DNA from: Achromobacter sp. Root83 | GTDB taxonomy: Bacteria > Pseudomonadota > Gammaproteobacteria > Burkholderiales > Burkholderiaceae_B | NCBI RefSeq assembly: GCF_001428845.1 | Contig: NZ_LMIU01000001.1 | Span: 558,984-622,983, forward strand | Direction: 5' to 3' | Length of the DNA: 64,000 nucleotides | Part shown: positions 14,404 through 31,200 of the stretch, one piece after another | Position numbering within the stretch: position 1 is the first letter of the stretch | How the letters are laid out: every line of letters starts with the position of its first letter | The notes under the pieces: model-generated | Told to the model about the DNA's origin: nothing | Seen by the model: the letters and a program-made list of their open reading frames with translations, nothing else | Database searches by the model: none | Translations under genes and position numbers: made by a program

Positions 14404-15759
14404 TCAGGCCTGTTGGCCGGCCGCCAGTTCGTCGAACAGGAAGTCGCCGCCCATCTGGCCGCCCTTGAGCATCAGTTCGATGCCGTCGGTGGCCGGATCG
14501 TCGCTGCGCGTCAGGCTGACGGTCACGCCGGGCGCCAGCACGCAGCGGAACGCCAGGCCCCACAGGCCGAGCGCCAGCGTGGCCTGGCTGGAGGTGTCGC
14601 CGCCGGCGATGCCGATGCGCGACAGGCGTTTGCCGCCCTGCGCGGTGGCTCGCACGATGTCGGCCACCATCCGGCCGGTGGCGCGGGCGGTGGCCGCGGT
14701 GTCCTGCGCGGTGACGGCCTGGGCCGGTTTGTCGGTATGCACCAGGACGTTGCGCCCACGGGCCAGCGTGGCGGCGGCCATCTGGACCTGCCGCGCCGCA
14801 TAGTCGGCATCGGCAAGCAGACGTTCCACGTGCAGCGGCTGGCGCGCGTAGTGCTGGCAAGCGGCGATCTGCCGGGCGGTGACCGGAGACAGGCTGCCAG
14901 CCACGACCAGCACGGGGCCCGTGGCCGGGGCCAGTGGCGCCGCGTCAAAGCCGTGCGCGCGCCCGGCGGGCGCGGCGCGGGCCAGGGCCTGCTGCACGCT
15001 GCTGGGGCCGACGGCCAGCAGTGGCGCGCGGGACGCCGCGCGCCAGATCAGGCCGCCGATGACGGCAAGTTGTTCGTCGTCGATCAGGTCCAGCAGCACG
15101 GGGCCGTCCGTGGTCTCGATGACGTGGTCGATCCAGTTGTTCAGCACGGTGGTGTCTGTTGCCTGCCGCAGACGCGGATAGGCGGTGTGCGGCACGGAGA
15201 GAATGCCGGACAGCCCCTGGGCCTGCAGGTGCAGGCGCAGATCGGCTTCGTGCATGGGCGTGACGGGGTGCGCGCTCATGACGGGGTGGCGGTCGATCCG
15301 GTGGATCTCCGGCGCCGATCCGGCGCGGGCAAAGAGCTGGGCAAAGCTGCAGTAGCGGCCGATGCTGGGCTGGCCGCCGACGATGGGCACCATCGGGTTG
15401 GGCATGTGGGTGCGCAGTTCGCGGATGGCCGCGCCGATGCTGCCGACGTGCGGCGCGCTGTCGAAGGTGGAACAGCACTTGTAGTGCAGCACGCGGGCGC
15501 CGGTGCCCGCCATGAACCGGCCCACGGCGCGCAGCTCGATCTCCATGTCGGCGGGGGCCATGCCGCGCGCGGCGCCGGCGATGCCGATGGCGTCCAGCGC
15601 GCCTGCGCGGTGCAACTGCTGCGGCGTGGGCACGCCCAGGAACAGCAGGCTGCGCAGGCCCGCGCGGGCGACCTCGGCCAGCGTGTCGGTGGCGCCGGTG
15701 AAGTCGTCGCCGTACCAGCACACCTGCGGGGCGGGGGCGCTGCGCTCGCCGTCAATCAT
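14404..15759 (-). CDS. Four-carbon acid sugar kinase family protein (DUF1537), OiaK/OtnK-like
   Basis: 451 residues of the DUF1537 kinase family, which phosphorylates 3-oxo-tetronate, threonate/erythronate or 3-oxo-isoapionate. The N-terminal signature YGDDFTGATD is at 16-25 (Asp18/Asp19, Asp25), and the nucleotide-binding C-terminal domain carries IAGGDTSSQAT. Family knowledge: beside a RuBisCO-like protein, the characterised partner is OiaK, which makes 3-oxo-isoapionate 4-phosphate for OiaX. Here its ATG overlaps the stop of the RuBisCO-like gene by 4 bp, which argues for consecutive steps. The exact substrate is inferred, not shown. It is the last gene of a minus-strand operon that begins with the TRAP genes. 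Confidence 0.88.
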   Translation of the reverse strand: MIDGERSAPAPQVCWYGDDFTGATDTLAEVARAGLRSLLFLGVPTPQQLHRAGALDAIGIAGAARGMAPADMEIELRAVGRFMAGTGARVLHYKCCSTFDSAPHVGSIGAAIRELRTHMPNPMVPIVGGQPSIGRYCSFAQLFARAGSAPEIHRIDRHPVMSAHPVTPMHEADLRLHLQAQGLSGILSVPHTAYPRLRQATDTTVLNNWIDHVIETTDGPVLLDLIDDEQLAVIGGLIWRAASRAPLLAVGPSSVQQALARAAPAGRAHGFDAAPLAPATGPVLVVAGSLSPVTARQIAACQHYARQPLHVERLLADADYAARQVQMAAATLARGRNVLVHTDKPAQAVTAQDTAATARATGRMVADIVRATAQGGKRLSRIGIAGGDTSSQATLALGLWGLAFRCVLAPGVTVSLTRSDDPATDGIELMLKGGQMGGDFLFDELAAGQQA

Positions 15760-17033
15760 GCGCGGCTTCCGAAGAAGGCCAGCGCGCGCTGCAGCTCGGG
15801 CGCGTTGCGGGCGTAGTCTTCAAGGCTTTGGTTGTCGCGCACCGCGTGCCAGGCCTGGCGGATGCTCTGCACGCCGGCGGCGGGGCCGTCCGGGTGCGCG
15901 AGGATGCCGCCGCCCGACATGAACAGCAGGTCGTCGCTATGCACTGCGGCCCAGGTGGCGGGCACGGTGCCGGCCCATTGGCCGGAAGAAAACGCGGGCA
16001 TGACGGCGTCGTCGATGCCGGGCGTCAGGGACGCCAGGCAGTCGCGCGCGGAGTCGACGACCTCGCTGTCTTCCTGCGCGAATTTTCCTTGCAGGCCATG
16101 CACGTGCATGTGGTCAACGCCCGCCAGCCGCCAGAGCGTCTGATAGGCCTGGAACCCCATGCCCAGCAAGGGGTGGCGGGACAACGCGCCGTAGCCGTTG
16201 CGGTGGCCGTGCAGCGCCAGCGGGGTGCTGCGGCGCAGGGTCTGGATGGCGGAGTAGCCGCACCAGTTCAGGCTGGCCATCACGCACGACCCTTGCTCGC
16301 GTTCGATCAGGTCCGCGTGGCGGCGCATGGCGTCGGTTTCGTCGCTGATGTTGAACGCCACCATGACGTTGCGGCCGGTGCGGTCGCGGTGCGCGCGCAC
16401 CACCGCCATCACCGCGGCCACGCGCTGGGCCAGAGGGGCATGGGCGGGATTGGCGCAGACTTCATCGTCCTTGATGAAGTCCACGCCCGCCGCGCAAAGC
16501 TGAGCGACCAGGTGCGCGGTTTGTTCCGGGGACAAGCCCACGTTGGGCTTGATGATGGTGCCGACAAGCGGGCCCGTGTCCACGCCGGTGCGCGCCCGCG
16601 TACCGGCGATGCCCACTTGCGGCAGGTCGAACTGGGCGCGGTAGTTGGCGGGCAGTTCCATGCTTTCCAGCCGCAGGCCGGTCACTTCGCCCAGGTCATA
16701 CAGATTGCCGCCGACCGTGGCTGCCAGCGTGGGCAGATTGGCGCCGACGTTGGCGACGGGGAAGGCGATGCGCACCCGCGCGCGCTGGTATTTGCCCGGC
16801 ATGCCGCCGGGTTGGCGCGCCAGCCAGGCGTTGGGCAGGCTGGGCGTGCCGACGGATTCCAGGGTCTCGATGGACTCGATGCGCGCCCGCGCCCGGGCGC
16901 GCAATTCGTCCGTTTCGCCCTGCACCCGCGTGAAGGTGCCGCAGGACTGCTCGCCGGCCATGACCTCCGCGACCCGGGCGGGGTCCATGGGGGTTTCGAT
17001 CAGGTAGGTGGCGGTAAACGATTGGGAATTCAT
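15756..17033 (-). CDS. RuBisCO-like protein, OiaX-type candidate
   Basis: 425 residues of the RuBisCO large-chain fold. Residues equivalent to the RuBisCO active site are visible: Lys162 in IIKPNVGL, the carbamate lysine and metal ligands Lys188-Asp190-Glu191 (FIKDDE), His277-Arg278 (HGHRNG), His310, loop-6 Lys317 (LQGKF), Ser349, and the phosphate-binding glycines 374-376 (SGGG). The lysine two residues after Lys162 in true RuBisCO (KPK) is Asn164 here, so carbon fixation is not expected. Known relatives act as isomerases, enolases or, with a DUF1537 kinase, as 3-oxo-isoapionate-4-phosphate transcarboxylase/hydrolase giving 3-phosphoglycerate and glycolate. Its stop overlaps the kinase start (ATGA), and a VOC gene lies 34 bp upstream. 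Confidence 0.92.
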   Translation of the reverse strand: MNSQSFTATYLIETPMDPARVAEVMAGEQSCGTFTRVQGETDELRARARARIESIETLESVGTPSLPNAWLARQPGGMPGKYQRARVRIAFPVANVGANLPTLAATVGGNLYDLGEVTGLRLESMELPANYRAQFDLPQVGIAGTRARTGVDTGPLVGTIIKPNVGLSPEQTAHLVAQLCAAGVDFIKDDEVCANPAHAPLAQRVAAVMAVVRAHRDRTGRNVMVAFNISDETDAMRRHADLIEREQGSCVMASLNWCGYSAIQTLRRSTPLALHGHRNGYGALSRHPLLGMGFQAYQTLWRLAGVDHMHVHGLQGKFAQEDSEVVDSARDCLASLTPGIDDAVMPAFSSGQWAGTVPATWAAVHSDDLLFMSGGGILAHPDGPAAGVQSIRQAWHAVRDNQSLEDYARNAPELQRALAFFGSRA

Positions 17034-17067
17034 GTTGACGGTGTGCGGCGTGGCCGGGTGGGGCGTG

Positions 17068-17607
17068 TCAGAGACGGGTCAGGTCGGGGAAGGCGCGGAC
17101 CGGATCCTTGCCGTCCCAGTCCATCGAGCTTTCGCGGATCAGGTCGAACAGGCGGCCCTTGGGACCGGCCACTTCGGAAAGCTCGATCACGGTGCCCGGG
17201 TGGTACTCGGTGTCGAAATAGATGAAGCGGCCTTTTTCTCCGACCTCGCCGCTCATCTTGGGCTTGAAGCCTTGCGCCAGCAGGCGCTCCAGATCGGCGT
17301 CGTAGCTTTCGGTCCAGTAGGCGACGTGCTGCAGGCCGGTGCGGCCGGCTTGCAGGAAGTCGCGGTACATGGAGGGCACGTCGTTGCGGGTCTGGATCAG
17401 CTCGACCTGCACAAATCCCGAGTTGGCCAGGGCCACCGAGTTGTGGGGTTCGTAGCCGACGCCGTCGTACTGGTAGTTCACGATCGGCACGCGCGGGTTG
17501 TAGTACCACGGGCCCACGCCCAGCGTGGTGCTCCAGTAGTCCATGGCGGCTTCGATGTCATGCACCACATAACCGAGTTGGCGGATTTCGCCCAGAAAAC
17601 GACTCAT
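17068..17607 (-). CDS. VOC/glyoxalase-superfamily protein
   Basis: 179 residues with two beta-alpha-beta-beta-beta modules, as in glyoxalase I and methylmalonyl-CoA epimerase. IRQLGYVVHDIEAAMDYWST opens module one, which contains the Glu of VQVELIQ; module two carries LQHVAYW (His) and GTVIELSEV (Glu), the metal-ligand positions of the superfamily. The reaction is unknown: epimerisation, isomerisation or C-C cleavage of an oxo-sugar acid would all suit the context. It lies between the TRAP permease (72 bp) and the RuBisCO-like gene (34 bp) in one operon. It is not part of the OiaK/OiaX pair as I know it. Confidence 0.85.
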   Translation of the reverse strand: MSRFLGEIRQLGYVVHDIEAAMDYWSTTLGVGPWYYNPRVPIVNYQYDGVGYEPHNSVALANSGFVQVELIQTRNDVPSMYRDFLQAGRTGLQHVAYWTESYDADLERLLAQGFKPKMSGEVGEKGRFIYFDTEYHPGTVIELSEVAGPKGRLFDLIRESSMDWDGKDPVRAFPDLTRL

Positions 17608-17679
17608 GATGGATCTTTGTAAAAGAGGTGGCTAAGAGGCGCGAAGGGCGCGGCCGGGTTCAGACCCCGCCGCGTCGCG

Positions 17680-19560
17680 TCACAGGAAACCGATAGAAAA
17701 CCAGGGGAAGGCCGCGACGATGAGCAGGCCCACCAGTAGCGCGGCGATGTAGCCCCAGATCGGGCCGATGCCTTCGTTGGGATCGACGCGGCTGATGGCG
17801 CAGGCGCCGTAATAGCCCACGCCGAAGGGCGGCGCGAACAGGCCGATGCCCATGGCGAAGATCACGACCATCGCGTAATGGACTTCGTGCACGCCTGCCT
17901 GCACCGCGATCGGGAACAGCAGCGGGCCGAACAGCACGATGGCGGGGATGCCTTCCAGCACGCTGCCCAGGATGATGAAGGCCACGATGGACACCGCCAG
18001 GAAGCCGTAGCTGCCGCCGGGCATGCTGGCCATTAGGCGGGCCAGGTCGCCCGAGAATCCCGATTGCGTCAGCGCCCAGGCCATGGCGGTGGCGCACCCG
18101 ACGATCAGCATGATGGCGCCCGAGAGCGAGGCGGTTTCGATCAGCATGGGCTTTAACCGCGCCCAGTCGAAGCGGCGGTAGATCAGGATGCCGACCACGG
18201 CGGAATACACGATGCCGATGGTGGATACCTCGGTGGCGGTCGCCACGCCTTCGACCACGGCCGCGCGTATGACGAAGGGCAGGGCCACGGCGGGCAGCGC
18301 GATCATGAAGAAGCGCCCGATCTCCTTGAAGCTGAAGCGCTGCACCAGGCTCAGGTCTTCCTTGCGGTACCGCCACCACACCACCGAGCACAGCGCCAGT
18401 CCCAGCACCACGGCGGGCAGCAGTCCGCCGGTGAACAGCGCGGCGATCGACACGCCCGTCACCGAACCGATGGTGATGAGCACGATGGACGGCGGGATGG
18501 TTTCGGTCTGCGCGCCGGTGGCCGACAGCAGGGCCACCAGGTCGCCGGGCTTGGCGCCGCGCTTCTGCATTTCGGGGAAGAGCACGGGCGCGATGGCCGC
18601 CATGTCGGCGATCTTCGAGCCCGAGATGCCCGACACCAGATACATGGCGCCGATCAGCACGTAGGACAGGCCGCCGCGCACGTGGCCCAGCAGGCTGGCC
18701 AGGAACTGGATCATGGCGCGCGCCATGCCCGTCATCTCGATCAGCGAGCCCAGGAAGATGAACAGCGGCACGGCCAGCAGCATCAGGTGGGACATGCCTT
18801 CGTCCAGCCGGCCCACCATCACCACCATGGGCGTGTTGGTGCTCAGCGCCAGGTACGAGAAGGTGGCCAGCGCGAACGAGAAAGCGATCGGCACGCCGGA
18901 AAACACGGTGGCGGCGACGATGCCCACGAAGAAGATCACCAGATTCAGCTTGCCCAGGCCTGCGAACAGCGGCTGCGCCAGCCAGAACAGGGCGGCCACG
19001 GCCGCCACGCCCGCCAGCGCCATCAGCACCTGCGGCAGCGGCTGCGTGCGCAGCAGGCGGAGCAGAGCGATGACCGCCATCAGCGCCATGCCCACCGGGA
19101 TCGCCGCGGCGCGCCAGGCGTTGCTGAGTTCCAGCGCGGGCGTGATGATGAAGTGTTCTTCGTGCGCGTATTCGATGGCGGGCGCCAGGATCAGCACCAG
19201 GAAGGCCAGCGACGCGGCCAGGGCCGCGGTTTCAAGCTGCGCGCGCCGTGCCGGGCTGACGTTGTTGACCAGCGCCGTCATCCGCATGTGCTCGCCGCGC
19301 CGCAGCGCGACGACCGCGCCCAGCATGGACAGCCACAGGAACAGGATGGACGCGAGCTCGTCGGACCAGACCAGCGGACTGTGGAACGCATACCGCGCCA
19401 CCACGCCGGCGAACAGCACGAAAATCTCGATCAGCACGATGGCCGCGGCGGCGTGTTCGACCACGGTGCCCAGCACGCTGTCGAGCGCGCCGGCCGCCCG
19501 GCGCAGGGGATTGGCCGGCAGCACCGGGGCCGCGGCGTGGGGAGCGGACAGGGAGGACAT
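17680..19560 (-). CDS. TRAP transporter fused permease (DctQ-DctM)
   Basis: 626 residues. An N-terminal DctQ-like four-helix part (about 1-180; VFAGVVARYAFHSPLVWSDE, then LRRGEHMRM) is fused to a 12-helix DctM part (about 200-626; FFVGIVAATVFSGVPIAFS, LFIFLGSLIEMTGMA, SGISGSKIADMAA, LEGIPAIVLFGPLL). DctM-type proteins carry out sodium-driven symport of solute delivered by the binding protein. Fusion of the two subunits is a known variant. It lies 31 bp downstream of the DctP gene and starts the metabolic half of the operon, so its cargo is presumably the sugar acid handled by the RuBisCO-like and kinase enzymes. Confidence 0.93.
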   Translation of the reverse strand: MSSLSAPHAAAPVLPANPLRRAAGALDSVLGTVVEHAAAAIVLIEIFVLFAGVVARYAFHSPLVWSDELASILFLWLSMLGAVVALRRGEHMRMTALVNNVSPARRAQLETAALAASLAFLVLILAPAIEYAHEEHFIITPALELSNAWRAAAIPVGMALMAVIALLRLLRTQPLPQVLMALAGVAAVAALFWLAQPLFAGLGKLNLVIFFVGIVAATVFSGVPIAFSFALATFSYLALSTNTPMVVMVGRLDEGMSHLMLLAVPLFIFLGSLIEMTGMARAMIQFLASLLGHVRGGLSYVLIGAMYLVSGISGSKIADMAAIAPVLFPEMQKRGAKPGDLVALLSATGAQTETIPPSIVLITIGSVTGVSIAALFTGGLLPAVVLGLALCSVVWWRYRKEDLSLVQRFSFKEIGRFFMIALPAVALPFVIRAAVVEGVATATEVSTIGIVYSAVVGILIYRRFDWARLKPMLIETASLSGAIMLIVGCATAMAWALTQSGFSGDLARLMASMPGGSYGFLAVSIVAFIILGSVLEGIPAIVLFGPLLFPIAVQAGVHEVHYAMVVIFAMGIGLFAPPFGVGYYGACAISRVDPNEGIGPIWGYIAALLVGLLIVAAFPWFSIGFL

Positions 19561-19569
19561 GGCGCGACC

Positions 19570-20592
19570 TCAGGCCAGCTTGCCGACGGACTGCTCCAGC
19601 AAGCCCCAGGCCTCGTCGCCGAAACGGCCCTTCCACTCCTTGTAGAAACCGGCGGTGCGCAGCTGTTCCCGGAAGCTGTCGGCGGACGGCTGGTTGAACT
19701 GCAAGCCCTTGGCTTCCAGGTCCGACTGCACCGACGCGTTGAGCTTCTTGATGTCTTCGCGCTGGGCCAGGCCGGCTTCGTTGATGCCGCGCGCGACGAT
19801 GGTCTTCAGGTCCGCGGGCAGGCCTTCCCACATGCGGCCGTTGGCGATGAACCAGTAGCCGTCCCAGATGTGGTTGGTCAGGGAGCAATACTTCTGCACT
19901 TCATACAGCTTGGCGACCTGGATGATGGGCAGCGGGTTTTCCTGCGCGTCCACCACCTTGGTCTGCAAGGACGAATAGACCTCGCTGAACTGCAGGCTGG
20001 CCGGCGCGGCGCCCAATCCCTTGAACATGGAGATGGGCAGCGAGCTGACCGGCACACGGATCTTCAGGCCGTCCATGTCGGCGGCGGTGTTGACCGGCGC
20101 CTTGCTGCTGGTGGTCTGGCGAAATCCGTTGTCCCACATCTTTTCGAAGGCGTAGAGGCGCCGTTGCGCGATGGCGGCCCGCACGTGCGCGCCCAGCGCG
20201 CCGTCCATGGCGCCCCAGACCTGGCTGTAATCCTTGAACGCAAACCCGACGGCATTGATCGCGGCCACCGGCACGAGCGTGGCGATCACCAGGGCGGACG
20301 GGGTGAAGAAGTCGATGCCGCCCGAGCGCACCTGGGCCAGCATGTCGGTATCCCCGCCCAACTGATTGTTCGGGAAGATCTTGATGTCCACCCGGCCGTT
20401 ACTTTCCTTCAGGATGCGGTCGGCGGCCTCTTGGGCCCGGATGTTCAGCGGATGCGTCACCGGCAGGTTGTTGCCGTACTTGAGCGTGTAGTCCGCCGCG
20501 CGGGCAATCAGGGGAAAGCCGCCGCCCACCAGGGCAAGGGCGGGAACCGCAGCGAGGCGGCGCAGGGCACTGCGGCGTGTAAGCAGCTTCAT
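19570..20592 (-). CDS. TRAP transporter substrate-binding protein (DctP family)
   Basis: 340 residues from ATG 20592, chosen for the GGAGA site 5 bases before it rather than ATG 20604. The N-terminus LLTRRSALRRLAAVPALAL resembles a twin-arginine signal; the mature protein begins near ADYTLKYGNN. DctP blocks include VDIKIFPNNQLGGD, the conserved-arginine segment KIRVPVSS, ENPLPIIQ and EVQKYCSLTNH. The conserved Arg binds the ligand carboxylate, supporting an acid substrate. It is the first gene of the operon; its promoter lies in the 112-bp gap to the divergent LacI gene, which is rich in palindromes. Confidence 0.93.
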   Translation of the reverse strand: MKLLTRRSALRRLAAVPALALVGGGFPLIARAADYTLKYGNNLPVTHPLNIRAQEAADRILKESNGRVDIKIFPNNQLGGDTDMLAQVRSGGIDFFTPSALVIATLVPVAAINAVGFAFKDYSQVWGAMDGALGAHVRAAIAQRRLYAFEKMWDNGFRQTTSSKAPVNTAADMDGLKIRVPVSSLPISMFKGLGAAPASLQFSEVYSSLQTKVVDAQENPLPIIQVAKLYEVQKYCSLTNHIWDGYWFIANGRMWEGLPADLKTIVARGINEAGLAQREDIKKLNASVQSDLEAKGLQFNQPSADSFREQLRTAGFYKEWKGRFGDEAWGLLEQSVGKLA

Positions 20593-20601
20593 GGTTGTCT
20601 C

Positions 20602-20617
20602 CATAATCGTAGTTATG
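20602..20617. promoter_or_regulatory. Palindrome next to the DctP ribosome-binding site
   Basis: CATAATCGTAGTTATG has 5-bp inverted arms (CATAA/TTATG) around 6 bases. It sits directly before the DctP translation signals and could be one operator for the divergent LacI regulator. Confidence 0.4.
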
Positions 20618-20722
20618 ATGTTTTTTGATGTGCCACAAATACGCCAAAGCCATGCGGCAGAGTGGACGATAGTGAATAGGCGCTATCATCGTCAAACCTT
20701 ATTCATGATGGTTTTTGATGTG
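20613..20722. repeat. Two direct repeats of 20 bp, 90 bp apart, in the divergent promoter
   Basis: TTATGATGTTTTTTGATGTG (20613-20632) and a copy at 20703-20722 match at 18 of 20 positions. The 90-bp period is a multiple of three, so both copies are in the same frame; the second forms the start of the LacI-family gene (MMVFDV). Confidence 0.8.
20668..20687. promoter_or_regulatory. Candidate LacI-family operator
   Basis: GATAGTGAATAGGCGCTATC is a 20-bp imperfect dyad (6 of 7 arm positions match, 6-bp spacer) in the middle of the divergent DctP/LacI promoter region. The size and symmetry suit a LacI-family dimer. Confidence 0.55.
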
Positions 20723-21766
20723 AATAGAGAATCCTCCGAACGCAAGCTTGCCCGGCTCGCCGATGTTGCCGCGCGTGCCGGCGTGTCCACCGCCACGGCC
20801 GACCGGGTGCTGAACCGGCGCCCCGGCGTGCGCGCCGCCACCGCGCAGAAGGTGTTCAAGGCGGCCATCGAACTGGACTACCTGCCCGAGCAGGAGGTCT
20901 ACGCCACGGCCGTGCCCGACCCGATGCGGCTGGTGTTCCTGCTGCCGCGCGGCAGCAACCGCTATCTACGCATGCTGGGCGATACCGTCAGCTACGCGCA
21001 CGAGCACTTCGCGCCGCTGAACGCGAAGTGCCAGGTCGAATACGTGGAAAGCTTCAATCCCGATGCGCTGGCGCAGGCGCTGGCCAAGCATGGCAAGCGG
21101 GCCGACGGGATCGCGTTCATGGCGCTGGAGCACCCGGTGGTGCGCGAGGCCGTCAACGCCCTGGCGCAGCAGGGCGTGCCGACAGTGACGCTGATTTCGG
21201 ATATCGCCAACAGCGCGCGCACGGCGTACGTGGGCCTGGACAACCGCGCCGCGGGCCGTACCGCGGGCTACCTGATCGCGCGTTTCATCGGTTCGCGCGC
21301 GGCGCACGTGGCGCTGATCGCCGGGTCCAGGCATTACCGCGCGCACGAAGAGCGCGAAAGCGGCTTCCTGCAGCTCTACGCCGAGCAGTTCCAGGCCATG
21401 CAGGTGGTGGACCTGCGGGAAGGCTACGACGACGCGCAGCGCAACTACGAGCAGACGCGCCAGTTGCTGGAGCAATATCCGCAGCTTGCCGGCATCTACA
21501 ACATCGGCGGCGCCTCGGACGGGGTGGCGCGGGCGCTGAAAGAGGCGGGGCTGCAGCACCGGGTCGTTTTCATCGGCCATGGACTGACGCCGGATACCCG
21601 GGCATTGCTGATCGACGGCACGATGGACGCGGTCATCACGCAAAGCCCGATGGAGGCGCTGATGAGCTGCGTGCGGATCTTCAGCAACCTGCGCGACAAG
21701 CGCAGCGCGATGAACGGGGTGGAACTGGCGCGCAGCCAGGTGATCTTCCGCGAGAACCTGCCGTAG
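20705..21766 (+). CDS. LacI-family transcriptional regulator
   Basis: 353-354 residues from ATG 20705 or 20708. The N-terminal HTH (about 15-40; RLADVAARAGVSTATADRVL, then NRRPGV hinge region) is followed by a periplasmic-binding-protein-like effector domain (about 65-350, including VGLDNRAAGRTAGYL and NIGGASDGVARAL). It is divergent from the TRAP/RuBisCO-like operon and is its likely repressor, with a sugar acid or intermediate as inducer. The frame is open to 20591, but that extension has no family similarity. There is no strong ribosome-binding site, and the start lies in a 20-bp sequence that also occurs 90 bp upstream. Confidence 0.9.
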   Translation: MMVFDVNRESSERKLARLADVAARAGVSTATADRVLNRRPGVRAATAQKVFKAAIELDYLPEQEVYATAVPDPMRLVFLLPRGSNRYLRMLGDTVSYAHEHFAPLNAKCQVEYVESFNPDALAQALAKHGKRADGIAFMALEHPVVREAVNALAQQGVPTVTLISDIANSARTAYVGLDNRAAGRTAGYLIARFIGSRAAHVALIAGSRHYRAHEERESGFLQLYAEQFQAMQVVDLREGYDDAQRNYEQTRQLLEQYPQLAGIYNIGGASDGVARALKEAGLQHRVVFIGHGLTPDTRALLIDGTMDAVITQSPMEALMSCVRIFSNLRDKRSAMNGVELARSQVIFRENLP

Positions 21767-22997: not shown

Positions 22998-25031
22998 GTG
23001 GAGGCGAGCGTGGTAGCGGGCGTGGAATCCACGGTGGAATTTGGTCCCGCGCCCATCCACGTGCGCATGCTGGGACCCATGACGGTCAGCCGGGCGGGCG
23101 CCGCCCTGGCGCTGCCGCCATCGCGCAAGCTGCGCGCGCTTATTGCCTACCTGGCGCTGGCCCCGCACGCCGTCAACCGGGCGCATCTTTGCGAGCTGCT
23201 GTGGGACATCCCGAACGACCCGCGCGGCGAATTGCGCTGGTGCCTCAGCAAGGCCAGGTCGCTGCTGGACGAGCCCGGGCGCCGCAGGATCGAGACGGCG
23301 CAGGACACGGTACGGCTGGATCTGGCCGATTGCCGGGTGGACGTCATCGACATCGGCCTGGCGATGCAGCAGGGCATCGACAAGGCGGACCCGGCGCGCC
23401 TGCGCGCGCTTGCGGCGCTGTTCGTGGGCGACTTCCTGGAAGGGCTGGAGATCGGCCGCAGCCCGTTCTTCAATAGCTGGCTCACGGCGCAGCGCCGGCG
23501 CCTGCGGGCCTGCCACACCGCCGTGCTGGAGCACCTGGCCGCAAGCCTGCCGTCCGGCTCCGAAGAGAGCTTCGCCTGCCTGGACAAATGGCTGCACCTT
23601 GCCCCCTTCGACCGCCACGCGCACGAACTGCTGCTGGATTCGCTGGGCTTTCGCGGCCAGTGGCGCGAAGGCGAAGCGCATCTGGCGGCGGCGGTGCGCA
23701 CCTTCGAGGCCGAGGGGCTGGACTGGCGGCCGTTGCGCGAGGCGTGGCGGGAGGTCCGGTCCCGGCGGGCGAGTCCCGCGCAGATCCCGGTTGATGCCGA
23801 CGCGGCGCCACCGCGGGGCCCCGCCGACAATGCGGTGGAACGGGCGGGCCGCGCGTCGATCGCGGTCATGCCGTTCGTGGACCGGTCGGCGCAGGCGGGC
23901 GTGCGCGGGGGGCTGGCGGACGGCCTGGCCTTTGACATCATCACCCGGCTGGCGAAGCTGCGCAGCCTGTTCGTCATCGCGCAGGGCACCGTCTTCGCCC
24001 TGGACCAGCGCAGCGTGGGGCCGGAGGAGGCGGGCCGCACGCTCAATGTGGACTACGTCGTCAGCGGATCGCTGCGGCGCCAGGACCAGCGCGTCGCCGT
24101 GGACGTTCAACTGGTCGACTCCAGGACGGCCCGCATCGTGTGGACGGACGTCTTCGATCACAAACTGGACGACGCGTTCCTGACGCTGGACGAGATCGGC
24201 AACCGGATCGTGGCGTCGATCGAGATCGAGATCGAGGCCGCCGAGCGCAACCGCGCCATCCTGACGCCGCCGACTTCGCTGGACGCGTGGCAGGCGCACC
24301 ACCGGGGCCTGTGGCACATGTACCGGTTCAACCATGCGGACAATGAGCAGGCGCGGCACTTCTTCGAGATGGCGGTACGGCTGGATCCGACGTTCTCCCG
24401 CGCCTACGCGGGCCTGTCCTTTACCCACTGGCAGACGGCGTTCCAACGCTGGGGCGAGCAAGGGCCGGCCATCGACCTGGCGTTCGAGACGGCCGGGCAG
24501 GGCCTGATCGCCGATGACCGTGATCCGGCCGCGCATTGGGCCATGGGCCGGGCGCTGTGGCTGCGCGGCAACCAGGACCAGTCGCTGACCGAATTGCGCA
24601 GCGCGGTGGACCTGAGCCCCAATTTCGCGCTGGGGCACTACACGCTGGGCTTCGTGGACTGCCAGTCGGGGGACGCCGAAGCGGCGATCGGCGCGTCCGA
24701 TTATTCCCGCCATCTGAGCCCCTTCGACCCGCTGCTGTTCGGCATGCTGGCCGTGCGCGCGCTGGCGCTGGTCCGCCTGGGCCGGCTCGACGAAGCCGCC
24801 GGCTGGGCAGTCAAGGCAGCCGCGCGTCCCAACGCGCATGTGCACATCCTGGCGATCGCCGCCTGCTGCCTGGCGATGGCCGGCCGGATCGACGAGGCGC
24901 TCGGCTTCCTGCCGCTGCTGCGCAAGGCGGCGCCGTCGTATCGCGTTGATGATCTGCTGACGGCGTTCCGCCTGACGCCGGACGCGCAGGCGCTGTTTCG
25001 CGAGGCGGCCAGGCGCATCGGAATCGGCTGA
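22998..25031 (+). CDS. SARP-type regulator with TolB-like and TPR domains
   Basis: 677 residues starting at GTG 22998. Domains in order: an OmpR/SARP-like winged helix (about 20-95, IHVRMLGPMTVSRAGAALAL to the ELLWD/ELRWCLSKAR block), a bacterial transcriptional activation domain (about 100-250, FLEGLEIGRSPFFNSWL), a TolB-N/FlgO-like beta domain (about 285-410, SIAVMPFVDRSAQ to DYVVSGSLRR) and TPR-like helices to the C-terminus (HFFEMAVRLDPTFSRAYAGL). No membrane segment is visible. The layout resembles signal-sensing one-component regulators; target and ligand are unknown. It is divergent from a methyltransferase gene and has no operon partner downstream before the autotransporter. Confidence 0.85.
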   Translation: MEASVVAGVESTVEFGPAPIHVRMLGPMTVSRAGAALALPPSRKLRALIAYLALAPHAVNRAHLCELLWDIPNDPRGELRWCLSKARSLLDEPGRRRIETAQDTVRLDLADCRVDVIDIGLAMQQGIDKADPARLRALAALFVGDFLEGLEIGRSPFFNSWLTAQRRRLRACHTAVLEHLAASLPSGSEESFACLDKWLHLAPFDRHAHELLLDSLGFRGQWREGEAHLAAAVRTFEAEGLDWRPLREAWREVRSRRASPAQIPVDADAAPPRGPADNAVERAGRASIAVMPFVDRSAQAGVRGGLADGLAFDIITRLAKLRSLFVIAQGTVFALDQRSVGPEEAGRTLNVDYVVSGSLRRQDQRVAVDVQLVDSRTARIVWTDVFDHKLDDAFLTLDEIGNRIVASIEIEIEAAERNRAILTPPTSLDAWQAHHRGLWHMYRFNHADNEQARHFFEMAVRLDPTFSRAYAGLSFTHWQTAFQRWGEQGPAIDLAFETAGQGLIADDRDPAAHWAMGRALWLRGNQDQSLTELRSAVDLSPNFALGHYTLGFVDCQSGDAEAAIGASDYSRHLSPFDPLLFGMLAVRALALVRLGRLDEAAGWAVKAAARPNAHVHILAIAACCLAMAGRIDEALGFLPLLRKAAPSYRVDDLLTAFRLTPDAQALFREAARRIGIG

Positions 25032-25083
25032 CGCGGCGCCGTGGGCGCCCACCTTCCCCCATCCGCGCGGGTCTTCGGGACTA

Positions 25084-25108
25084 CGACTAAAGTCGGATGT
25101 ACTAGTAC
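25084..25108. promoter_or_regulatory. Two adjacent palindromes upstream of the autotransporter
   Basis: CGACTAAAGTCG (25084-25095; 5-bp arms, 2-bp centre) and the perfect dyad GTACTAGTAC (25099-25108) lie next to each other, about 105-130 bp before the autotransporter start and 50 bp after the preceding stop. They are likely binding sites for a dimeric regulator; which one cannot be told. Confidence 0.5.
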
Positions 25109-25211
25109 TTTCGAACTGCTACTCTCGGCCAGGCTCTGGGCACCCCCGCCCGGGCGGACTCTTGGCTGTGCGTATTTGTTGCGTGTCGGTCAGCTCACTC
25201 ATGGCGCGACA

Positions 25212-28200
25212 ATGCAGAACAGATCGAAATCGACAAAGACCGCACACCGTCAGGCCCGCAAGAACACACCCAGTACCGCCACGCAGCCCAGGCTGAACTA
25301 CGCAAGCCGGCTGTTCCTGGCCGCGTGGTGTTCGGCGTTTCCCCTCGCCGGCGCCGTGGCGCAGCAATCGCTGGTTTGCACGGGCTACAACCCGATGAGT
25401 TGCAACAACGACAGCGGGACGTTGACCGCGCCGGTGACCCTGACCGACAGCGATCAGAATTTCAACGTCACCAACAATGCCACGCTCGTCCTGAGTGACG
25501 GCGCCAACCCCGTGGGCGTGGAGATATTCAGCCAAGGGATACAGGGCACGCAAGGCAGCCAGACCGACCGCAACGGCGGCCAAGGCTATGACCTGACGCT
25601 GACCAACAACGGCAGCGTGTCGATGAATATCAATGGAATCGCCACGGAGATGGCCATCGGCGTGCGGGGCAGCAGCCGCGGGGGACTCGGCCTGCCGCAA
25701 AAGCCCAGCAGCGACAACGAGGGGGGCAACGGCGGCGCGGGCGGCACGGTCACGCTCACGAATAACAACGCCGTGACACTCGGGTCAGGTACCAATGCCA
25801 GCTATTCAAGCGGCGCGATGGGTGTCTATGCGGAAAGCGCGGGCGGCAATGGCGGCCCGCCGGAATCCCATGCCATCGACCACTACGGCGGCAACGGCGG
25901 CAACGCCGGCACGGTCACGCTGACCAACAATGCCTCCGTTTCCCTGGGAACCGCGGGTACGCCCTTGCTGGGCAGCGTCCGGGCCTGGGCGGTAGCGGCC
26001 GAGAGTTTCGGCGGCAGCACCGGCAATTACGCAAAAGGACAGATCACGGATGGCTCACCCGCCGGCCAGGCGGGCTCCGCGGGTGACGTGACCCTGACCA
26101 ATCTGGGCAATGTTTCCGTCTATTGGACGACCATACCCGGGACCACGACGTCCGACGGCGTGGTGGGCATCATGGCCCGCAGCTTCGGCGGCACGGGCGG
26201 CTTCAGCGACTACTCCGACGATTCCGGCGGCAACGGCGGCAATACGGGGCAGGTGAAGGTCAATGTCGGCTCGGCGGCGGGCGGCGCGAAAACCCTGGTG
26301 GTCGCGAGTGGCGGACCCGGCCTGAGCGGCAACAGCGCAGGCGTGCTGGGCCTGTCCAGAGGCGGGGTCGGCGGCAATCAGGAGTCCCATGGCGCCAGCG
26401 GCGGGGCGGGCGGCAATGCGGGCGGCGTCACCATCCAGCTCAACAACACGCAGGTCAGCACGGCCGGGGATGGCGTGGCCGGCGTGGTGGGGTTTTCACG
26501 CGGCGGCAACGGCGGCCAGGGCAACGCCACCGACCATAGTACGGATGGCGGTAACGGCGGGAACGCCGGCAATGTCAGCGTCTCGCTGGATTACTCGGGC
26601 AGCACGCCCGCCCAGGCCTCGTCGGTGTCGACCAACGGCCTCGCGGCCTATGGCCTCCTGGCGCAGAGCGTCGGCGGATTTGGCGGCACGGGCACCTCGC
26701 AGGGCGGCATCGGCCAGAATGCCGGGACCGCGTTCGCGACCACCCTGAACTACTCGTCCGTCACCACCATCGGCGACTTTGCCGCCGGTATCGTGACGCA
26801 ATCGATCGGCGGGGGCGGAGGCACGGGCACCGACTTCACCGATGGCCTGGCCGGGGCGGGTGGCAACGGCGGCAATGGCGGATCGGGCACGGACTCCACG
26901 ATCTCCACCTCGGGGGCCATCAGCACCACGGGACAGCATGCCTATGGCCTGCTGGCGCAGTCGATCGGCGGCAGCGGCGGCACTGGCGGCGTCGGTGCGG
27001 GGCTGCTCCTGGCGCTTGGGGGAGACGGCGGCGCCGGCGGCGGCGGCGGCACGGTGTCGGTCACCAACGCGGGCAGCGTCAGGACCAACGGCTATGGGTC
27101 CACCGGCATGACCGGCCAATCCATCGGCGGCGGCGGCGGCGCGGCGGGCGCCGCTGGCGGCTTGATCGCCATTGGCGGATCGGTGTCCGCCTCGCAGAAC
27201 AACAGCGGCGGCGGGGTCACCGTGACCAATACGGGTCTGGTCAGTACCCAGGGCGACGCGGCCATCGGCCTGCTCGGCCAATCGATCGGCGGCGGCGGCG
27301 GCAGCGCCGCGACGACGGCGGGCCTGTTGTCCATCGGGGGCACCGGCGGTTCCGGCGGCAACGGCGACTCGGTGACGGTACACGCGGACGGCACGCAACA
27401 GACGTCGGGCCGGTATGCCTACGGCGCGGTCGCGCAATCGATCGGGGGCGGGGGCGGCAATGGCGGTGATGCATTTGGCGTCACCACCGCGGCGCCGATT
27501 CCGACCTTGGGCGGCAGCGCGGGGGCGGGAGGCTCGGGTGGCGTGGTCTTCATGACCGTCAACAACAACGGCGTGTTGGGTACCGTGGGCGATGGATCGA
27601 CGGGGCTGCTCGCCCAGTCGATCGGCGGCGGCGGAGGCAGCGGCGGCTCGGCGTCGCAGCTGGGTGTGCTGGATACCGTGTCCCTGGCGATTGGCGGGGC
27701 CGGCGGCAGCGGCGGATGGGCCAATACGGTGACCGTCCAGACCTCGGGGGCGACCCTGACGACCAACGGCGCCAGCGCGGCGGGCATCGTCGCCCAGTCG
27801 ATCGGCGGCGGCGGCGGCAGCGGCGGCACCGCCCAGTCGCTGGATGTGAACCTGGGATTCAGCCTGGGGGTCACGGTAGGCGGCAGCGCCGGCTTGGGAG
27901 GCAGTGCGAACAAGGTCAGCGTGACGCTGGACAACACCAGCGTCAGCACAGCCGGCCTGACCCACGGCCGGCCGCCGGCCGCGCCCGGCTCCAAGGCGGT
28001 CGACCAGACGGATTCCTACGGCATTCTTGCGCAGTCGATCGGCGGCGGCGGCGGCAACGGAGGCAGCGTGGCATCGCAGAGCATCGCGCTGGAAGCGCCG
28101 ATTCCCGACGGCACCTCTTTCGCGATTGGAACGGCGGTGGCCGTAGGCGCTTCGGGCGGCTCGGGCGGCGACGGCAGCGAAGTGGATGTGACGCTGTCCG

Positions 28201-31200
28201 GCACCAGCGCGGTCCAGACCGACGGCCAAGGCTCGCACGGCGTGATGGCGCAGTCCATTGGCGGCGGCGGCGGCAACGGCGGAGACTCCAAGGCCATGAG
28301 CCGCACCGTCACGATCGAAGACACCGCCGTGGCGGTCAATGTCGATACCGCCGTCGGCGGCCAAGGCGGTGTGACGGGCGACGCGGCGCTGGTCAACCTG
28401 CAGCTCCATGACACCGCCCGGATCACGACCTACGGCGATTATTCCAATGCGCTGATGGGGCAATCCATTGGCGGCGGCGGCGGGAATGCGGGCATCGGCA
28501 GCAGTGGATCCGGCGGCATTGCCAGCGGCAAGTCCTACACGGTGAATGTCGGCGTGGGCGGCAAGGGCGGCGCCGGCGGCGAAGGCGGACCGCTCCAGGC
28601 GACGCTGGACCCGGGCGCCCGCATCGCCACCTTCGGCTCGGGTTCGCGCGGCGTTCTGCTTCAATCGATCGGCGGCGGCGGCGGCGCGTCGCAGGGCGCC
28701 ACCGTGGACCTGGGACTGCCATTTTCCAGCGGCGGCGGCGACACGGCTGCCTCCGCCACCACCAGTTTCAGCGCATCGGTGAATGTTTCTGTCGGTGAAA
28801 AAGGGGCCGGAGGCGGCAGCGGCGACACGATAACGCTGACCGACAACGGCACCATCATCACCTGGGGCAACGATGCGGACGGCCTATTGCTGCAGTCCAT
28901 TGGCGGCAGCGGCGGCCTGGGCGGATCCGCGGGCTCGGATGCCTCGGCGGGGCCTTCGTCGTATCCCTCGGGCGGGAACAATCCCGACGCTCCTCCGCCT
29001 CCTCCTTCGAACGACACGAATCTAGGCTCGTACTCGCTGTCGGTCGCGGTGGGCGGCAAGGGCGGCGGCGGCGGCAATGGCGGCGCGGTTACCGTGAACT
29101 ACGCCGGCCTCACCGCGACGCAAGGCGAGCTTGCCGACGCCATGGTGGTGCAGTCCATTGGCGGCGGCGGCGGCGTGGGCGGGTCGGCCACCGCCAAGGG
29201 CGCCAAGGGCGACGCGGCCGTGCAGATCGCCGTGGGCGGCACGGGCGGCGCGGCCGGCGACGGCGGCCTGATCACGCTGAACATGCAGGGCAAGGCAAAC
29301 GGCAAGTACAGCGTGCTGGACGCCGGCCAGTTTGCCACCCTGGGCAACGTGGCCTACGGACTGCTGGCGCAGTCGATCGGCGGCGGCGGCGGCCAAGGCG
29401 CCGATGGTTCTTCCGACGTCACCTACAAGACCGCCACGACGCCGTCGTTGCTGCTTGGCGTCAATGGAACCGGCGGCAATGGCGGCCGCGGCGGCGCCAT
29501 CAACATGAATGCGCCGGGCAGCCTGGTCGGGGCGTTGACGCATGGAACCGGATCTCACGCCGTGGTGCTGCAATCCATTGGCGGGGGCGGTGGCACCGCC
29601 AGCATGGGGAGCAGCGTGTCCGTCAAGGGCTCCAGCCTGATCCTGCAGTTCGGCGGCGGCGGCACTGGTAGCGCCAGCGGCGGCGGCGACGTCACCGTGA
29701 ATTCCTCGCTGCTGTCGGCGACGACCGGCCATGGCGCCTATGGCTTCGTCGGCCAGTCCATCGGCGGCGGGGGCGGCATCGCCTACGCGGGCCAGGCGGC
29801 CAACATCAGTTCGGCGACGATCGACAACACGGGCCAAAGCAACGCGAACGATGCGTCGGGCGGCGCCGTCAATGTCACCCTGAACGCCGTTTCGGGAACG
29901 TCCCAGATGGACGACTATCTAGATATGCGGACTCTCGGCTCCGCGGCGCATGGCATCGTGCTGCAGTCGATCGGGGGCGGCGGCGGAATCGCGGGCGATC
30001 CCGCGGCGTCTTCGCTGCAAATGGGGTGGCAGGGCGGCGGGCAGGCCAGATCGGGGGCCACCAGCGCCAACGGCGGAGACATCACGCTGAATCTGAATTC
30101 CATGCGGATCAAGGCCACCGGCGACAACAGCTACGGCGTCATCATGCAGTCGATCGCGGATGGGGGCGGCCTGGGAGGCACCACGCAGGGGAGCTTCGCG
30201 GGGTCGGTGTACAACCACGCCAATGGCGGGGGTTCTAAGGCGGGCAGCATCACGTTTACGCAGACGGGTGGCCAACTGTTGGTTTACGGAAGCAACCCGG
30301 TCGGCGTTTTTGCCCAGAGCGACGGCAATATTTCCCAGGCGTCGCCTATTTCCCTGACCATCAACGGCACGCTTCAGACCATGACGGGAGACCCGAACGG
30401 CGTCGGCGTATGGCTGGACGGCGGCTCGGTCGGCAACACCGTCACTGTCGGCGGCTGGATCGACTCCACCGTCGCCGTGCAGCAGACGCGCAACGGCGTC
30501 ACCACCGTCACCAACACGGGGACCATCTCCGGTTCGCAAATCCTCACCGCCGACAACAGCGACGCGGTCGGCGTCGTCAACAATACCGGCACCTTGCTCA
30601 ACGCCGCCATCATCAAGGGCACGGTCTTCAACGACGGGGCCGTGCTGATCGGCTCGCGCTCGCAGCTAGGCCAGATGCGCGTGACCAACGACTTCAACCA
30701 GGGCGCGGCCGGCGCGCTGCATGTGAACACCGACTTTTCCAACATGCAGGTCGATACGATCTCGGTCGACGGCGCGGCGCGGCTGGGTGGGCGCGTGCAG
30801 ATCGATGCGTTGACGCTGATGCCCAACCGGGAACTGACCTTCATGCAAGCTGGAACCCTGACGCCGAATGCGGCCGTGGGCGGCGCGTCGGACCTGTTCG
30901 ACTTCAATGCCCGCTACACGCCCCGGACGGCGTCGGTGTCGGTGGGCAATGCCAATTTCAATGCGCTGTCGAGCAAGTACGGCGTGGGATCCAATCTGCG
31001 TGAAATGGGCAACCATCTGCAGAATATCTGGGACCGCGGCAGCAACGAGGAGCTTGGCGCGCTGTACGCCCAGCTCGACTATGCGGCCGCCGGCGGCGCA
31101 TCCGGCTATTCGTCCGCGCTGAGCGACCTGTCGCCGGGCGCATCCGCCGCGCCCGCCGCGCTGGCAACTGGCGCCATGAAGGGCTTCGGCGATTCGCTGT

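Follow-up and report, generated by a model that had tools for sequence, protein, structure and literature searches.

A VOC-family protein as a probable substitute for the oxidoisomerase: a RuBisCO-like protein/DUF1537 kinase module of Achromobacter and many other bacteria

Introduction

What feeds the kinase in an operon that pairs a RuBisCO-like protein (RLP) with a DUF1537-type kinase and carries no oxidoisomerase? The question arises for a locus of Achromobacter sp. Root83, which lies in the 64-kb stretch of DNA analysed here as a whole (the window; positions 558984-622983 of contig C1, NZ_LMIU01000001.1, in a 6.2-Mb genome). There, a minus-strand operon encodes a tripartite ATP-independent periplasmic (TRAP) transporter, a VOC-family protein, the RLP and the kinase, next to a divergent LacI-family regulator. 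A first-pass annotation had suggested a sugar-acid pathway, possibly undescribed, and our results support this: the locus matches no named pathway, the oxidoisomerase is absent, and the VOC gene is the odd part. We conclude that the module is real and widespread, though patchy: a variant of acid-sugar catabolism by RLP and DUF1537 kinase, undescribed as far as the literature was searched, in which the redox feeding step has likely given way to a VOC enzyme. No description of an RLP-VOC or RLP-TRAP-kinase module was found in a literature search that covered few subscription papers.

The pathway that we propose, with confidence a little short of even, is a non-oxidative branch of the 3-oxo-isoapionate type, in which a VOC isomerase replaces the oxidoisomerase ApnO and the exit is of the OiaT type. 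Taken up by the TRAP transporter, a C2-branched sugar acid of the oxo or aldehydo kind would be isomerised by the VOC protein, in a step without cofactor oxidation, to a 3-oxo acid similar in type to 3-oxo-isoapionate. Phosphorylation of this 3-oxo acid at C4 would fall to the DUF1537 kinase, and the RLP would likely act like OiaT, splitting its substrate into 3-phosphoglycerate and a 2-hydroxy acid, for example glycolate. OiaT itself yields 3-phosphoglycerate and glycolate.

Results

The operon and its conservation

All six genes lie where the first-pass annotation had placed them, and Pfam agrees with every family.

14404..15759, minus strand: DUF1537-type kinase (four-carbon acid sugar kinase family), the operon's last gene; Pfam SBD_N and NBD_C (PF07005 and PF17042)
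15756..17033, minus strand: RLP of 425 amino acids (aa) with an OiaT-like active site, in a clade of its own; RuBisCO_large(+N), PF00016 at 219.9 bits
17068..17607, minus strand: VOC metalloenzyme-like protein, 179 aa, predicted first enzyme; Glyoxalase_4
17680..19560, minus strand: fused TRAP permease; DctQ and DctM (PF04290 and PF06808)
19570..20604, minus strand: TRAP solute-binding protein DctP; Pfam DctP
20591..21766, plus strand: open reading frame (ORF) of the divergent LacI-family regulator; LacI and Peripla_BP_4 (PF00356 and PF13407)

The kinase and RLP genes overlap by 4 bp (15756-15759) and the VOC gene sits between the transporter genes and the RLP/kinase pair, both as previously noted; the gaps separating DctP, permease, VOC and RLP genes are 9, 72 and 34 bp. 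DctP, DctQ and DctM all pass their Pfam gathering cut-offs, which places the transporter in the DctPQM type. For the regulator, a start downstream of the ORF start, at the ATG at 20705 or at 20708, is more plausible.

The arrangement was followed in 84 loci selected by their RLP, comprising the best 80 of 545 confirmed RLP matches from a scan of named genomes and four plasmid records picked from 18 with at least 59% RLP identity, so that the sample leans to near relatives. Two loci with an RLP of a different clade (L026 and L027) were excluded. As initial ORF picks were often antisense or overlong frames, the counts are based on tblastn layouts. The kinase gene immediately follows the RLP gene in all 84 loci, the VOC gene immediately precedes it in 81, and the LacI gene is divergent in 78. 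A VOC gene is missing from three loci: L046 and L087 end at a contig edge, and L093 is a genuine exception. This gene arrangement is far beyond chance.

Uptake, by comparison, is exchanged among these loci: 55 have the TRAP type of the window and 17 another TRAP type, nine have an ATP-binding cassette (ABC) system of the polar-amino-acid type (Pfam found an SBP_bac_3 domain in one of them), and three are other or cut. Five loci (L025, L040, L041, L082 and L084) carry a short-chain dehydrogenase/reductase (SDR) as the first gene between LacI and DctP, the last four 76-78% identical to the SDR of L025. It is as if an oxidation supplied the VOC substrate in these five, widening the substrate range.

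The module is patchy but broad, occurring in Achromobacter, Variovorax, Acidovorax, Azospirillum, Paraburkholderia and various alphaproteobacteria. Among Achromobacter genomes, 38 of 43 encode the VOC protein at 88-100% identity, and 33 of 37 encode the RLP. Across Burkholderiales, seven of 399 genomes hold the VOC protein at E<=1e-55, and all seven VOC genes (that of the window included) adjoin an RLP. Plasmid records with a VOC protein of at least 63.7% identity over at least 99% of its length have an adjacent RLP by coordinates in 18 of 19 cases.

The RuBisCO-like protein and the kinase

The first-pass annotation had taken OiaK and OiaX as comparators, and tight clustering of both enzymes with this pair would have pointed to a known pathway. 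Such clustering was not seen. The RLP, the only match to the OiaX model in its own genome, reaches 429.5 bits against an NCBIfam equivalog cut-off of 700; among 249 genomes scanned as a control, four hold a protein over this cut-off, at 772-786 bits. OiaK is likewise the best NCBIfam match of the kinase, at 290.3 bits against a cut-off of 700, where the OiaK of P. sprentiae scores 822 bits. The kinase scores 154.5 bits with the OtnK model (cut-off 350) and 57 bits with that of D-threonate kinase. Relative to the P. sprentiae apionate locus, the RLP of the module is 47% and its kinase 38% identical, and neither reaches its OiaX or OiaK cut-off. In Paraburkholderia graminis C4D1M the two systems coexist: contig C46 encodes an OiaK (857 bits) adjacent to an RLP and an ApnO-like protein, and contig C65 carries a VOC module whose kinase and RLP score 290.7 and 426 bits with the OiaK and OiaX models.

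In a careful tree of 37 RLP rows, the 19 RLPs from VOC modules, that of the window among them, form one clade (support 100/100), separate from the OiaT clade as identified by ApnO linkage and names given by the JGI. Quick trees were also made on subsets (60 RLP rows, namely 59 and an outgroup, of 136 extracted; 60 kinase rows). Several relatives 79-80% identical to the ApnO-linked member L129 are named 3-oxoisoapionate-4-phosphate transcarboxylase/hydrolase by the JGI, and the ApnO-linked group is likely the OiaT clade. RLPs of Agrobacterium K84 and Xanthobacter are reported to decarboxylate, or to transcarboxylate and hydrolyse, 3-oxo-isoapionate-4-phosphate (PMC6302742).

The RLP of the window is 95% identical to a homologue in A. 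mucicolens and 92% identical to one in A. kerstersii, which is labelled 3-oxo-isoapionate-4-phosphate transcarboxylase/hydrolase in NCBI. It is also 72% identical to PDB entry 3nwr, where the molecule is called simply 'A rubisco-like protein'. RLPs of 45-49% identity occur on haloarchaeal and Rufibacter (Bacteroidota) plasmids (H35, H36, H38, H43, H45, H47, H54 and H55).

Two further family assignments were rejected. A form III RuBisCO reading gives 226 bits against an NCBIfam cut-off of 497, with Asn164 at the position of K177, and the DK-MTP-1-P enolase MtnW, raised previously as an alternative to a sugar-acid role, fails at the family level (125.8 bits against an NCBIfam cut-off of 513.6).

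Aligned to form III RuBisCO, the RLP keeps the equivalents of E60, N123, K175, K201, D203, E204, H294, R295, H327, K334 and S379 (R295 apart, these are E28, N110, K162, K188, D190, E191, H277, H310, K317 and S349 in its own numbering). The comparison covered 82 of the 84 loci, leaving out L046 and L087, where the RLP lies at the contig end. All of these equivalents are kept throughout the 82 sequences of the window clade and the six of the ApnO-linked group, whereas the four over-cut-off OiaX sequences, which are 40-43% identical to the RLP of the window, carry D, G, Q and G/C at E60, N123, H327 and S379. The RLP retains the RuBisCO-type catalytic residues expected of OiaT, a non-specific property that SDR-linked RLPs share. 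Because SDR-linked and other RLPs keep them too, these residues speak against OiaX more than for OiaT.

Gene context agrees. Homologues of TIM-type (triose-phosphate isomerase) and RpiB-type isomerases are encoded in all four OiaX loci (L201-L204; Pfam confirms the pair in L201) and, within the fetched flanks, in none of the 84 module loci; three of the OiaX loci also have ApnO in the stretch read, and in the fourth it lies about 8 kb away. Active-site residues and gene context together rule out a plain OiaX reading. OiaX was therefore the wrong comparator: the RLP resembles OiaT in its active-site residues and in having no downstream isomerases, though it lies outside the OiaT clade. That no isomerases follow is consistent with an exit leading directly to 3-phosphoglycerate; together with the catalytic residues it leads us to infer an OiaT-type exit.

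The feeding step

For the missing feeding step, the first-pass annotation had offered two possibilities: that it is encoded elsewhere, or that the VOC protein carries out an isomerase-type step on a different oxo-acid. In the 64 kb of the window itself, tblastn at E<=1e-5 found no homologue of the eight proteins used as queries: an ApnO, a PdxA, a DeoC-type aldolase, isomerases of the TIM and RpiB types (one each) and three SDRs. At the same threshold ApnO was found in none of 43 Achromobacter genomes, that of strain Root83 included, leaving the locus without the oxidoisomerase of the D-apionate pathway. The same query found ApnO in eight of ten genomes chosen for an OiaX-family match, and an ApnO encoded elsewhere in the genome was rejected on this basis.

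Common regulation provided a second approach. No palindromic LacI operators shared among the upstream regions were found; LacI-family operators are mostly palindromic, and a direct repeat is unusual. The putative operator is a direct repeat, TGATG-N5-TGATG, common to most of the LacI upstream regions examined. The motif TGATGGTTTTTGATG was derived from 8-mers shared by these regions, and TGATGKTTTTTGATG, allowing up to two substitutions, is present in 68 of the 80 LacI upstream regions. The two copies in the window are:

20616..20630: operator-like motif, copy 1, TGATGTTTTTTGATG, between LacI and DctP
20706..20720: operator-like motif, copy 2, TGATGGTTTTTGATG, overlapping the likely LacI start

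At zero or one mismatch these two sites, both between LacI and DctP, are the only ones in the genome, and therefore no unlinked feeding gene shares the motif closely. A feeding gene elsewhere under the same motif was likewise rejected: beyond the local pair there are seven sites, all with two mismatches, compared with two for a reversed control. ApnO in none of 43 genomes against eight of ten in the control, and the lack of a third genomic motif site at zero or one mismatch, make it less likely that the feeding step is encoded elsewhere; neither test would detect an unrelated enzyme for this step under other control.

Exchange of module parts

Locus L148 (genome G276) combines the front of the module with a different exit. 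Its LacI, DctP, TRAP permease and VOC proteins are 60%, 75%, 75% and 79% identical to those of the window, and its RLP is closer to that of the P. sprentiae apionate locus (64% identity) than to that of the window (52%); its kinase is 48% identical to OiaK and falls on the OiaK side of the quick tree. The RLP (L131) falls in the broad ApnO-linked group (99/94) and an inner group (81/86) of the 37-row tree, and forcing it into the window clade was rejected (p-AU 0.00016). The kin of this RLP adjoin either ApnO (L150 and L206) or an SDR (L118), so the feeding enzyme is what varies.

A third exit was found in the order of G276, where 25 of 297 genomes hold the VOC protein at E<=1e-55 and 21 VOCs have at least 60% identity. 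Twelve of the 21 lie beside an RLP and six beside a PdxA homologue, two have PdxA about 7 kb away, and one (L164/L181) has neither within 16 kb. Outside the 21, the VOCs of L174-L178 (50-55%) have neither RLP nor PdxA in a 3.5-kb stretch. Azospirillum thermophilum (L142) also has the PdxA form. The PdxA-type loci are:

L142; L166-L173 with L179, L180 and L182-L185 (nine loci): PdxA-type VOC/TRAP loci

Five of the seven PdxA-type loci read over 14-16 kb (L180 and L182-L185) have a homologue of a DeoC/LacD-type aldolase (Pfam of one), and L179 has no OiaK-like kinase in 16 kb. PdxA normally oxidises a 3-hydroxy acid. The loci resemble a sister pathway whose exit would be an oxidation or a decarboxylation.

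At 23 inspected positions the VOC proteins of the window and of L148 (as L153) are identical throughout, and those of the PdxA-type loci L142, L166 and L167 differ from that of the window only at position 54, which varies among RLP-linked VOCs too. As the VOC protein is conserved across exits, the simplest reading is that it acts on the imported compound first and that its product is taken by the kinase and shared by several exits. It would thus precede the kinase.

A separate group of modules (L026, L027, L116, L118, L120 and L121) combines an RLP, a DUF1537 kinase and an SDR, four of them with TRAP genes, and matches no named pathway. We know of no described function for them; hamamelonate (2-carboxyarabinitol)-type acids are presumably candidate substrates.

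The VOC protein and the solute-binding protein

The VOC protein scores 86 bits with Glyoxalase_4 (Pfam gathering cut-off 27) and 20.1 bits with the methylmalonyl-CoA epimerase model (NCBIfam cut-off 114.95). Its AlphaFold model is confident (pLDDT 94.1), and the closest solved folds are 3gm5 and methylmalonyl-CoA epimerases. Residues Q10, E69, H94 and E142 are invariant in 39 of 39 aligned VOCs; the first three align with H7, Q60 and a His of methylmalonyl-CoA epimerase and E142 with a Glu of 3gm5, positions that we take to be metal ligands. The VOC protein thus likely binds a metal and polarises a carbonyl. Of the two earlier possibilities, the conservation of this protein and its occurrence alongside three different exits favour the one in which it carries out an isomerase-type step; the reaction itself is a prediction from sequence. 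A second VOC protein in the same genome, 47% identical, is encoded on contig C6 (L152:5052-8784), where Pfam assigns its neighbours to the SDR (two genes) and LacI (one gene) families, and VOCs of that kind, at 44-49%, occur in eight of 43 Achromobacter genomes.

The closest solved relative of DctP is 4oan. Its own gene (a 100% match in G1045), with its TRAP genes, adjoins the gene of an AMP-binding enzyme of the acyl-CoA-synthetase type; neither an RLP nor a VOC was found in this home locus. The arrangement of a 4oan-type TRAP followed by an AMP-binding enzyme occurs at L207/L223 (G1045) and at L224. 2-Acetolactate is listed with other TRAP ligands in a passage that does not name 4oan (PMC5812351). 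A DctP matching 4oan at E<=1e-110 is widespread, in 202 of 391 genomes of that family. The 4oan ligand, presumably 2-acetolactate, was dropped as direct substrate evidence, given the home locus and this wide distribution.

Elsewhere in the window, a plus-strand pair (22998-32072) consists of a 677-aa ORF (22998-25031) followed directly by a 2343-aa ORF (25041-32072).

Discussion

The comparison closest to the module is the OiaK/OiaT branch of D-apionate catabolism, which Carter et al. are said to have described in 2018. Both have an adjacent DUF1537 kinase-RLP pair with RuBisCO-type residues kept and no TIM/RpiB isomerase homologues; unlike that branch, the module has no ApnO, a VOC protein in its place, and uptake by TRAP or amino-acid-type ABC systems. 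The OiaK/OiaX branch uses the same two protein families, but OiaX has lost the equivalents of E60, N123, H327 and S379.

Several observations weigh against the proposed non-oxidative branch. On the side of the exit, nine SDR-linked and other RLPs retain the same RuBisCO residues, the K177 position is Asn in the window clade and Ser in the OiaT-like group, and the equation of the ApnO-linked clade with OiaT rests on JGI names and gene context rather than on a characterised sequence. The kinase of L148, at 548 bits, is below the OiaK cut-off of 700. The module is also not always whole: L093 lacks the VOC gene, L181/L164 (VOC 74%) has no RLP, PdxA or kinase within 16 kb, and TRAP genes and a VOC gene of this family occur with PdxA and without an RLP in nine genomes, in eight of which an OiaK-like kinase lies beside PdxA. 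A PdxA exit fits poorly with a 3-oxo product of the VOC protein unless PdxA only decarboxylates there, and six PdxA-type VOCs (60-61%) differ at several of the inspected positions. As for the chemistry, the closest solved VOCs, putative or proven methylmalonyl-CoA epimerases, shift protons, and by this analogy a quaternary C2 is a poor fit because it carries none. Since its locus context differs, the 4oan ligand cannot be carried over to the DctP of the window.

The most credible rival is a linear-acid route, although we consider it unlikely. A C4 2-oxo- or 3-oxo-tetronate would be imported, the VOC protein would serve as a tautomerase or C2 epimerase (an analogue of OtnI), the kinase would give 3-oxo-tetronate 4-phosphate, and the RLP would decarboxylate this to dihydroxyacetone phosphate (DHAP). 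Such a route needs no further enzyme and matches the proton-shifting chemistry just mentioned; PdxA, which replaces the RLP in the nine VOC-TRAP loci, is the exit enzyme of the linear D-threonate and D-erythronate routes. Against this route, the OiaK model fits the kinase better (290 bits) than do those of OtnK (154) and D-threonate kinase (57), an OiaT/OiaK-like pair replaces RLP and kinase in L148, and the DeoC/LacD-type aldolase in five of seven PdxA-type loci would be superfluous if the product were DHAP. The OtnI/OtnK/OtnC and PdxA2 tetronate routes share with the module the logic of isomerase, kinase and decarboxylase, and PdxA replaces the RLP in some VOC loci; the operon has neither OtnC nor OtnI, however, and its kinase is far from OtnK by score and in the quick tree.

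Could the locus be a plain D-apionate pathway built of non-orthologous parts? A functional OiaK and OiaT would then be fed by an unlinked, unrelated dehydrogenase, with the VOC protein as an accessory. That OiaK and OiaX are the best NCBIfam matches, and that the 92% identical A. kerstersii homologue carries the transcarboxylase/hydrolase name in NCBI, speak for this, but we regard it as distinctly unlikely: kinase and RLP fall below the equivalog cut-offs, P. graminis has both systems, the VOC protein is conserved as tightly as the RLP, and the genome has no further operator-like site at zero or one mismatch.

We give similarly little credence to import of the 3-oxo acid itself, for which kinase and RLP would suffice and the VOC protein would epimerise or detoxify an isomer off the pathway. 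In 79 of 84 loci the operon lacks an SDR of the L025 type, and the VOC fold is related to epimerases, both as this would have it; yet the VOC gene is present in all but one uncut locus and is kept with the TRAP genes where the RLP is absent, which is unusual for a helper. Very improbable, finally, is a VOC protein that opens or cleaves a conjugate (an ester, an epoxide, or by oxidative cleavage) to release the kinase substrate, since, for all the broad chemistry of the VOC superfamily and the location of relatives at 38-45% identity near ring-hydroxylating oxygenases or CoA-pathway genes, these relatives lack several residues common to the module VOCs and the operon shows no gene for handling a second product.

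For the proposed non-oxidative branch, a more specific and speculative form can be stated, which we think unlikely as it stands. The VOC protein would be the isomerase half of the apionate oxidoisomerase, making a metal-assisted shift (of an alpha-ketol carbon, or aldose to ketose) on a branched plant cell-wall sugar acid, such as an apiuronate-like or aceric-acid-like compound, and kinase and RLP would give a redox-neutral route to 3-phosphoglycerate and glycolate or lactate. If true, the VOC fold would gain a new chemistry and RuBisCO-like enzymes a third mode of supply. The module VOC is 18-28% identical to methylmalonyl-CoA epimerase and 3gm5, and its operon encodes no CoA pathway.

The modules of RLP, DUF1537 kinase and SDR, known from C. 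pinatubonensis, B. elkanii, Rhizobium, Caballeronia and Chimaeribacter, share the RLP-kinase pair and, in L026, L027, L118 and L120, the TRAP genes. They differ in having an SDR and no VOC, a LysR gene near the RLP in the five annotated ones, and RLPs of other clades.

RuBisCO-like proteins have few assigned functions, and the clade described here includes the solved structure 3nwr. Some database entries name module RLPs RuBisCO or OiaX/OiaT, and such names should be avoided. As both the feeding enzymes (ApnO, SDR and VOC) and the exits (two RLP clades and PdxA) are exchanged between loci, one set of assays with VOC, kinase and RLP could assign a substrate to many genomes.

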